Shown here one piece after another: positions 56,857 to 59,142 of a stretch of DNA of 64,000 bases. The stretch's first letter is position 1, and each line of letters begins with the position of its first letter. The translations under genes were made by a program, and so were the position numbers. This stretch comes from Candidatus Rokuibacteriota bacterium. Its GTDB lineage: Bacteria; Methylomirabilota; Methylomirabilia; Rokubacteriales; CSP1-6. The DNA is taken from the NCBI GenBank assembly GCA_003221695.1, contig QHSX01000059.1, forward strand, positions 1 to 64,000, read 5' to 3'. A model generated the notes under the pieces. The model was not told the DNA's origin and did no database searches. It saw only the letters and a program-made list of their open reading frames with translations.

Positions 56857-57010
56857 CTAACGCGCCAAGGGGTGCAAGACGTCGATCGCCCAGCCCACGT
56901 CCAGGCGCTCCCCCAGCCACCCCGGCGTGGTGGTCCGCGCGTTCAGGACAACCCCCTCGGCATCGTGCTGTGCTTGGAGGATCTTGACGGGATCGCCGAG
57001 CCCGCTGCCG
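56857..57010 (-). pseudogene. Possible coding remnant (C-terminal tail)
   Basis: The minus strand reads protein-like for about 45 codons to a stop, including EGVVLNARTTTPGWLGERLD and the pattern W-x-G-E-x-x-D-x-x-x-A-x-x-x-L. This tail reminds me of short C-terminal tails on HNH-endonuclease-type proteins, but I cannot confirm that. The codons before it lose coding character and no start is visible. It sits at the edge of the less GC-rich cassette, as expected of insertion debris. Confidence 0.35.
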
Positions 57011-57107
57011 CTCCTCGACGACGGGCCGGGGGACGTCCTTCCCGGCCCGTTTCGCTTTCTCGGCGCCTCGGTGAGGGGGCCGCCTCGTGCCGGACATGGA
57101 CTGACAC

Positions 57108-57142
57108 GGTCCGACATTGGTCCGACACGACCTGCGTCGGAC
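57108..57142. repeat. Direct and inverted repeats upstream of the XRE regulator (possible operator)
   Basis: GGTCCGACA occurs twice (57108-57116 and 57119-57127) at an 11-base period, about one DNA turn. The second copy also forms an inverted repeat with GTCGGAC at 57136-57142 (GTCCGAC...GTCGGAC, 9-base loop). The site lies about 60-90 bases before the XRE ATG and is a plausible autoregulatory operator. Confidence 0.4.
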
Positions 57143-57198
57143 TGATGACGTGGCGCAACGGGTGGACTTCGCCTATCGTCAGGCATGAGGTGGACAAG

Positions 57199-57813
57199 AT
57201 GACGACTTCATACGCCGACCGGATCAAGGAGCTACGCACTAAGCGGGCTTGGTCGCAAGACCACCTTGCCACTATTGCGGGCGTTAACGTAAGGACCGTG
57301 CAACGTGTCGAGGGAGGCGACCCGGCTTCCCAAGATACGCTCAAAGCGCTTGCGAATGCCTTCGACACCGACGTGACCAACCTGGTCCAGCCCAGACTCG
57401 CCGCCCCAACCGCCCCTGAGTCGATCCTACTGATTCGGGTTCGCACAGGTCGTGACCTGTTCAAGATCGCCGGCGGCGCTGAGGGGTTTGGCTTCGACCA
57501 CGGTGAACTGGACGACGAGGCGGTTGAGCTTGTGGCGACATTCCTGCAGGACCTAAAGGACTGGGCCGAGATGTGGAACCACTTAGAGCCCGCGGAGCGA
57601 GTGCGGGTCCCGCATGAGTTCACGTCGCGAATCCAGGAGATCGAGGGTGCGGGCCTCTATGTTTTCGCCATGCGGCACTCGCATCCCTACAAGATCGCGG
57701 GTAGGACTATGCAACTCGACACGGCGACCATCTACGTGGTCAAGAGTACTGACCCCGGAATCGTGAGCTTGGCCGACGAGTCTGCGGCACTGCCTAAGGG
57801 CGCAGGCTCGTGA
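57199..57813 (+). CDS. XRE-family helix-turn-helix regulator with unknown C-terminal domain
   Basis: 204 residues. An N-terminal HTH at about 5-62 (RIKELRTKRAWSQDHLATIA; VQRVEGGDPASQDTLKALA) is followed by a domain of about 140 residues with FLQDLKDWAEMWNHLEPAER and a final beta-rich part, not recognised. Start ATG 57199 follows a GAGGTGG ribosome-binding site. Codon use is visibly less GC-rich than in the flanking metabolic genes. It overlaps the next gene by four bases (GTGA), so the two form a cassette: regulator plus putative nuclease. Confidence 0.82.
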   Translation: MTTSYADRIKELRTKRAWSQDHLATIAGVNVRTVQRVEGGDPASQDTLKALANAFDTDVTNLVQPRLAAPTAPESILLIRVRTGRDLFKIAGGAEGFGFDHGELDDEAVELVATFLQDLKDWAEMWNHLEPAERVRVPHEFTSRIQEIEGAGLYVFAMRHSHPYKIAGRTMQLDTATIYVVKSTDPGIVSLADESAALPKGAGS

Positions 57814-58874
57814 ACGGCATGACAGGCGAGACTGACGACGCCGAGACGGGTGGCTCTTGGCAGGTGTACTTTCTCTCGCTCGTGAATCCGGCCAACCCGG
57901 GCCATGACTTCGAGCGAGTCAAGGTCGGGATCACGAAAAGAGACGTCGCGAGGCGCATCGAGCAGCTCCAGACCGGAAACCCGTTTCAGATTTGCTGCGA
58001 GAGAAGCTTCCGATCGCCGGTCGCGCGGCAGATCGAGCACTGGGTGCACCGTACGTCACAGGTCGAACAGCTTGAGTGGCTGCGACTGGCTCGCTCGGAA
58101 ATCCCCGGTCTCGTGAAGAGGGCGCAGCTGGAAGGCGAGCGACTTGCCCGCATTGAGGAGGCTAGGGCGCGCTGGAGTCGCTCGAAGTCCAACGGGATCG
58201 AGCGGCAGCCCGGCGCTGAGGAGAGACGCCTCCACGAGGCCGCGCGAGGCGTTCTCGCGGAACTGTGGCCGGTCAAGCTTCGACTAGAATGCACGAAGAG
58301 GAGCGTCGCTCTCAAGGCTGGCAAGTTCTTGCGCGTCCCCGGCATTGTCACAATATCGTACCGTCCGTCCGCGGGGCGGTTCAATCCCAAGACGGCCCTC
58401 AAGAAGTTCCACGACCTCGCCGCTCCCTATACGGTCGAGGAGGTCGGCGGCACGTTCCGCTGGCGGGACGTGCCGAACCTTGGCTCACCCGGGTGGGCGC
58501 AACTGCGGGCGGAACTTGAGCGTCTGGAGGCGGAACGACGCGAACTCGACGCCGCGATGCTCAGCAGCGACGATTGGCTTCGAAAGGAGGGTGAGCGAAC
58601 AGACGACCTCGCCTGCCTCCACGACGAGTACCTTTGTCTCATGCGGCAAAAGGCGCGCCTCGAGTTGGACGAGGAGTACATCCAGGCGCAGGCGATTCAG
58701 GCCATAGAAGATTTCGAGGCGATAGCCGGCGTATGTAGCTTCCGCCGGTCTGCTGGACAAGTCCTGAACGACCACAAGTCGTTCTGCGAGGCACATCGAA
58801 ACGAGGCGGCCCAGTGTTTCTCGGAATCCAAGGCGCACATCCGGCGGCGGATCTACGCGAGCCGGTCGTACTGA
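57810..58874 (+). CDS. GIY-YIG/T5orf172 (MUG113)-like domain protein with coiled C-terminal region
   Basis: 354 residues. The N-terminal region (about 16-80) reads VYFLSLVN...RVKVGITKRDVARRIEQL...TGNPFQICCE, the pattern of the T5orf172/MUG113 branch of GIY-YIG-like nucleases. The rest is helical and charged (ERLEAERRELDAAMLSSDDW) with a middle domain around LRVPGIVTISYRPSAGRFNP. Catalytic competence cannot be proved. Such proteins often occur in phage, plasmid or defence settings. It starts with GTG inside the stop of the XRE gene. An inverted repeat follows at 58968. Confidence 0.7.
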   Translation: MNGMTGETDDAETGGSWQVYFLSLVNPANPGHDFERVKVGITKRDVARRIEQLQTGNPFQICCERSFRSPVARQIEHWVHRTSQVEQLEWLRLARSEIPGLVKRAQLEGERLARIEEARARWSRSKSNGIERQPGAEERRLHEAARGVLAELWPVKLRLECTKRSVALKAGKFLRVPGIVTISYRPSAGRFNPKTALKKFHDLAAPYTVEEVGGTFRWRDVPNLGSPGWAQLRAELERLEAERRELDAAMLSSDDWLRKEGERTDDLACLHDEYLCLMRQKARLELDEEYIQAQAIQAIEDFEAIAGVCSFRRSAGQVLNDHKSFCEAHRNEAAQCFSESKAHIRRRIYASRSY

Positions 58875-58967
58875 GCAAGCGGCGAAATTCGTCGCCTTGT
58901 CGCCCGCCAGCACTAACGGGAGCGCGGTAAACGGTGGTGCTGGCACGCTCAGGGGAGCGCGATCCTA

Positions 58968-58995
58968 CGGTCAACCCCGGACCGGGGGTTGACCG
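58968..58995. terminator. Strong inverted repeat, terminator-like hairpin
   Basis: CGGTCAACCCC (58968-58978) pairs with GGGGTTGACCG (58985-58995), an 11-base perfect stem. It lies between the convergent ends of the XRE/nuclease cassette and operon F. No T-run follows on either strand, so it may be a bidirectional, Rho-assisted terminator or an element end; classification is tentative. Confidence 0.4.
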
Positions 58996-59142
58996 AAGGG
59001 GGGGCAAGTCACCTACGGCCAGCTGTTCCGGGGCGTCATCGGCGCACATAGGTCAGGCCCTCTCTCAGGATCCGTTGCGCCGGCGGAGCCGGCGCTCGAA
59101 CTAGGGTTGCTTCGGGGCGCTCGGCGGACGCGCGAGCCCCCC

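Follow-up and report, generated by a model that had tools for sequence, protein, structure and literature searches.

A Putative Autoregulated XRE–Nuclease Operon in a Rokubacteria-like Genome and the Integron Link of Its Effector Lineage

A two-gene unit in Candidatus Rokuibacteriota contig QHSX01000059.1, encoding an XRE-family regulator and a nuclease-like protein, is best explained, with a probability of roughly 50%, as a horizontally acquired, autoregulated operon with an effector from a lineage that also travels as an integron cassette. The window, the whole 64,000-nucleotide stretch of DNA that was analyzed, comes from a soil bacterium, a Rokubacteria-like MAG with a 4.6-Mb genome. The footing of this reading is the observed gene layout, the conservation of the operator, the foreign distribution of the pair, the cassette status of the effector's homologue, and the purifying selection on the effector. 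The features of the locus are as follows.

56857 to 57001, minus strand: 3′ remnant of a multicopy HNH endonuclease gene, from DNA identity to other copies
57020 to 57052, plus strand: terminator-like hairpin, then TTTCGCTTT, downstream of the decarboxylase-like gene, from repeats and folding
57093 to 57127, minus strand: candidate operator iterons, four TGTCSG-like repeats with a 10–11-bp period, from pattern scan, controls, and homologues
57199 to 57813, plus strand: XRE-family regulator of 204 aa, with HTH_3 at the N terminus and a C-terminal domain of ∼130 aa without a Pfam family
57810 to 58874, plus strand: MUG113/GIY-YIG nuclease-like effector of 354 aa, from its Pfam match and conserved residues, with a GTG start over the XRE stop
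58964 to 58999, no strand: 15-bp hairpin with an 11-bp perfect core (arms 58964–58978 and 58985–58999)
59059 to 59101, no strand: short dispersed repeat with many genus copies, native sequence flanking the cassette on the right

The stop codon of the XRE gene and the GTG start of the nuclease-like gene share four bases, GTGA, and both genes lie where a sequence-only reading of this DNA had placed a coupled pair. That reading set the cassette at 57108–58874; the pair is indeed present, but the XRE gene starts at 57199, and base 57108 falls inside the operator repeats. The lower GC content ascribed to the two genes is also borne out: values of 0.611 (XRE) and 0.632 (nuclease-like) correspond to z-scores of −2.5 and −1.8 relative to the 43 long open reading frames (ORFs) of the window (mean 0.686, standard deviation 0.030). 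A comparison of GC3 is uninformative because the long-ORF set includes shadow frames.

Upstream of the pair, the suspected coding remnant proved to be the end of a multicopy HNH endonuclease gene, comprising the final 47 codons plus the stop (minus strand 57000–56857). It shares 93–96% DNA identity with copies in the genus, including the host genome (G000, G001, and G003), and the homology stops at 57001, the truncation point. Longer copies of the HNH gene carry CRFPGCG..GHHIRHW, and 3′ remnants cut at differing points are scattered through the genus (L003, L004, L030, and window 56857–57001). The hairpin at 57020–57052 has an 88% similar counterpart elsewhere in the host genome (G000:C94:3146–3201). 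Downstream, the 11-base perfect hairpin described earlier is present within longer arms; it sits between the convergent nuclease-like and LLM genes, is not followed by a T-run, and is a possible terminator. The repeat at 59059–59101 is REP-like, and dozens of copies occur in the genus. Native repeats thus flank the cassette on both sides, which argues against a chimeric contig. The left flank is syntenic with a decarboxylase-like cluster in G033 (83% DNA identity), in which homology ends exactly at the stop codon of the decarboxylase-like gene and a different operon follows, making the locus a synteny breakpoint. None of the relatives examined has both window flanks adjacent, and no empty site could be defined. 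The pair is absent from same-genus genomes, in line with the earlier proposal of a foreign, self-contained, XRE-regulated cassette.

In the proposed mechanism, this self-contained operon would have been acquired horizontally as a unit. The XRE protein would bind phased TGTCGG iterons upstream of its own gene and repress the operon. The overlapping second gene would encode a nuclease of the GIY-YIG superfamily (MUG113/T5orf172 type) with a helical, possibly Cys/His zinc-binding, C terminus, and repression would hold its level low. Release could follow from a signal that the XRE protein detects through its undescribed C-terminal domain, or simply from absence of the repressor; the freed nuclease would cut phage, plasmid, or other target DNA in a mobile-DNA conflict. 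Counting against the operon reading, the XRE–nuclease pairing is seen only once, and Candidatus Rokuibacteriota nzgw246 has the nuclease-like gene without an XRE gene. Further points against it are the inverted orientation of the window iterons, the lack of a GIY-YIG gene after any XRE homologue examined, AlphaFold2 models of too low confidence to confirm either fold, the lack of an end-to-end match to a known defense family, and the lack of an attC at the window copy. In a broader and unlikely version, a widespread but so far undescribed mobile XRE family with a phased iteron operator of its own and an unnamed sensor domain would be an exchangeable control module that captures integron effectors, such as a MUG113 nuclease, to form an anti-mobile-DNA unit.

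The regulator is a member of the XRE family, matching HTH_3 above the Pfam cut-off (E = 4e-8). Its full-length relatives (20–33% identity, C-terminal domain included) reside on plasmids and virus-like contigs, and none was found in the other 94 genomes of the phylum searched (95 with the host). On plasmids, the homologue is usually a solitary gene; its neighbors include TrlF, BrxL, AbiE, SIR2, PDDEXK, and DUF2357-methyltransferase genes, and no GIY-YIG gene follows any of the homologues examined. An AlphaFold2 model of the XRE protein (pLDDT 40) is of too low confidence for use.

The candidate operator for the XRE protein is an array of phased TGTCGG repeats ∼71–110 bp upstream of the XRE start, which reads TGTCGGACCAATGTCGGACCGTGTCAGTCCATGTC on the minus strand (57127–57093). 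Its three-repeat score is 17/18, and the 5,564 control stretches, each of 200 bp and taken from the genomes examined, all stay below 16, so the operator-like repeats that the sequence-only reading noticed are real and beyond chance. A gapped-pattern scan finds the array at one place only in the 4.6-Mb host genome, which argues against a wider regulon. Iterons scoring at least 15/18 precede eight of 11 XRE genes, the window's included. Seven of the 10 plasmid relatives score 15–17 (p = 0.003–0.007 against shuffles), with an exact 11-bp spacing and a position 76–91 bp upstream of the start. The remaining plasmid relatives show two clear repeats (L033; 13/18, p = 0.06), a partial array (L132; 13/18, p = 0.12), and no iterons by the three-repeat score test (L128). 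For relatives on viral contigs, the scores are 16–17 (L138, L141, and the twins L139 and L140) and 12 (L142, possibly through an annotated start too far upstream); all full-length viral-contig homologues except one show iterons. The window array is inverted with respect to those of its homologues. A literature search found no papers on the iteron operator sequence, and its conservation is a new and solid part of this result.

The product of the second gene matches the Pfam MUG113 profile at 27.2 bits (curated cut-off 22.3, E = 5.9e-6), and its homologue in nzgw246 (G023) does so at 41.4 bits in a genome scan. Of the T5orf172/MUG113-type N terminus predicted earlier, the MUG113 assignment therefore stands, but the T5orf172 profile is unmatched by the window protein. 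MUG113 is highly related to T5orf172, itself a GIY-YIG subfamily (PMC10448857), and in one case, Gp88 of phage ICP1, the nuclease activity of a T5orf172 protein is reported to depend on a conserved glutamate (PMC8263062, PMC10448857). From this domain match, the product is predicted to be a nuclease. No family in NCBIfam, PHROGs, or PADLOC covers the protein, its C-terminal 250 residues match neither a family nor a RepA-like or CapR/DUF723-type domain, a sequence search of the PDB gave no match, and its AlphaFold2 model (pLDDT 37) is unusable. The only full-length homologue retains Y20, K38, G40, R49, E76, and H80 (n = 2 sequences), and a C309/C326/H329/C336 pattern is invariant in both copies (n = 2). 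Y20, R48/R49, and E76 are invariant in the two homologues, their assignment to catalytic positions being by alignment only, and the Arg and Glu positions also align with G043 and viral sequences. This conservation hints weakly at catalytic and zinc-binding roles. Measured over the window and nzgw246 lineages together, dN/dS between the two nuclease-like genes is 0.39 overall (0.28 for the N-terminal MUG113 region and 0.30 for the C-terminal one), and the protein is thus under purifying selection. The host genome encodes a second MUG113 protein (L133; G000:C100:96399–96605) that differs in architecture and lacks an XRE partner.

The nuclease-like gene occurs in two of 99 relatives, the window's own genome and nzgw246, which holds the only full-length homologue (JAHFDN010000021.1; 69% identity over 349 residues). 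DNA similarity between the two copies is confined to the ORF (window 57828–58880). The plasmid and phage records searched gave no match, and one viral contig matched over the GIY-YIG segment only. A possible parallel insertion in G043, where a MUG113 protein neighbors an HNH gene, was discounted because the two layouts are unlike and HNH genes are multicopy.

Integrons collect accessory and anti-phage genes. The nzgw246 homologue lies between attC sites with RYYYAAC and GTTRRRY boxes and has no XRE gene beside it. A covariance model was trained on 15 attC-like sites that neighbor integron integrases in this lineage, nzgw246 excluded; 14 of its 24 pairs change on both sides. It recovers all four nzgw246 sites at 35.8–56 bits, which identifies this homologue as a cassette. 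In nzgw246 at least, the effector lineage thus takes the form of an integron cassette, and this link is likewise new and solid. Of 60 genomes, 16 have integron integrases above the cut-off. The host is among them and nzgw246 is not, which makes the array of the latter consistent with the CALIN type, a term used as in PMC12444791. The model places ∼33 sites in the host genome, all on other contigs, and no attC at the window copy, near which the best scores are 15 bits (the operator repeats) and 11 bits (the downstream hairpin); the window copy itself was accordingly rejected as an integron cassette.

Several further observations concern these arrays. Those of the host lie at L120 (G000:C21:56000–72000), L060, L061, and on contigs C32, C34, C46, and C53, with integron integrase genes or fragments on contigs C11 and C28. 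The nzgw246 cassette array (L011:12915–16002) contains further uncharacterized genes for proteins of 150, 160, and 193 aa that have no Pfam or PADLOC match; HEPN- and PIN-like labels given to neighboring cassettes by eye were unsupported by either resource and were dropped. In a second nzgw246 array (L127:4310–7296; G023:C57:64309–67295), a three-site attC block is apparently duplicated at an equal spacing of ∼1,872 bp.

The differing distribution of the two genes raises the question of whether they belong together. It is unlikely, on balance, that a solitary XRE gene of plasmid type was acquired separately from a cassette gene of integron type and that the two were joined at a breakpoint without any functional link. 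Such an origin would fit the synteny breakpoint after the decarboxylase-like gene and the DNA homology to the nzgw246 gene, which begins 18 bases into the ORF in the manner of a recombination joint, but the exact 4-base stop–start overlap, the unit's own operator, and the flanking hairpins suggest coupled expression. Purifying selection on the nuclease also speaks against it, with the caveat that the estimate pools both lineages. A tighter bond, in which the second gene encodes a toxin against host DNA and the XRE protein serves as its antitoxin, is quite unlikely. The regulator–effector order with overlap is what such a pair would show, and the HTH weakly resembles HipB/Y4mF antitoxins, but these matches span the HTH only and are far below family cut-offs. 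XRE homologues are mostly solitary, and nzgw246 has the nuclease without XRE; each partner occurs alone elsewhere, and therefore neither needs the other, whereas the partners of a type II toxin–antitoxin system are kept together.

It is similarly improbable that the nuclease-like gene is a free-standing T5orf172 homing endonuclease that cuts cassette-free DNA, with the XRE gene as a passenger. Among phage homing endonucleases, T5orf172/MUG113 proteins that bind DNA through zinc-finger parts are common (PMC10448857), and the C..C..H..C pattern is conserved at the C terminus of the window protein. Yet the phage and plasmid records searched lack a match, a CapR/DUF723-type domain is not detected, no homing site is seen at the locus, and the homologue resides in an integron cassette array rather than within a conserved target gene. 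For the favored reading, an acquired and autoregulated operon, a role in defense is plausible from the company that both partners keep, since the XRE family adjoins defense genes and the effector's kin lies in an integron; integron cassettes are described as stores of anti-phage genes (PMC12444791).

If correct, this reading would connect three subjects that are normally treated separately: integron cassettes acting as reservoirs of accessory and defense genes in uncultured Rokubacteria, stand-alone MUG113 GIY-YIG nucleases, and a mobile XRE family whose iteron operator is conserved and which is found beside plasmid defense genes. The operator offers a directly testable prediction on regulation, and the unnamed C-terminal domain of the XRE protein is a sensor candidate.

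Comparison with known systems places the unit near several of them. No known anti-phage family in PADLOC matches end to end, and the earlier judgment that this is not a named defense system holds. The candidate system PDC-S57 shares the GIY-YIG-like region with a partial, weak match (E = 3e-5; 3e-7 for the nzgw246 homologue) that extends over 56 of the model's 212 positions, with no relationship in the remainder. With the T5orf172/MUG113 branch of GIY-YIG proteins (ICP1 Gp88/Odn and the ICP1 homing endonucleases), the window protein shares the domain match, by alignment the Tyr, K-x-G, Arg, and Glu positions, and a separate DNA-binding-like region, possibly zinc-binding. It differs in its unassigned C-terminal 250 residues and in the setting of its lineage, an XRE operon and a bacterial integron array rather than phages. 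As in integron gene cassettes, including the anti-phage cassettes of sedentary chromosomal integrons, the effector's closest homologue stands in an attC array, and the host genome has both integrase genes and attC sites; the window copy, in contrast, is a two-gene unit with an operator of its own and lacks an attC. Finally, the solitary plasmid XRE regulators with TGTCG iterons, such as those on the Polaromonas JS666 and Pseudomonas BYT-1 plasmids, share full-length homology (20–33% identity) and phased upstream repeats with the window regulator, which differs from them in the opposite orientation of its repeats and in the nuclease-like gene coupled to it downstream.
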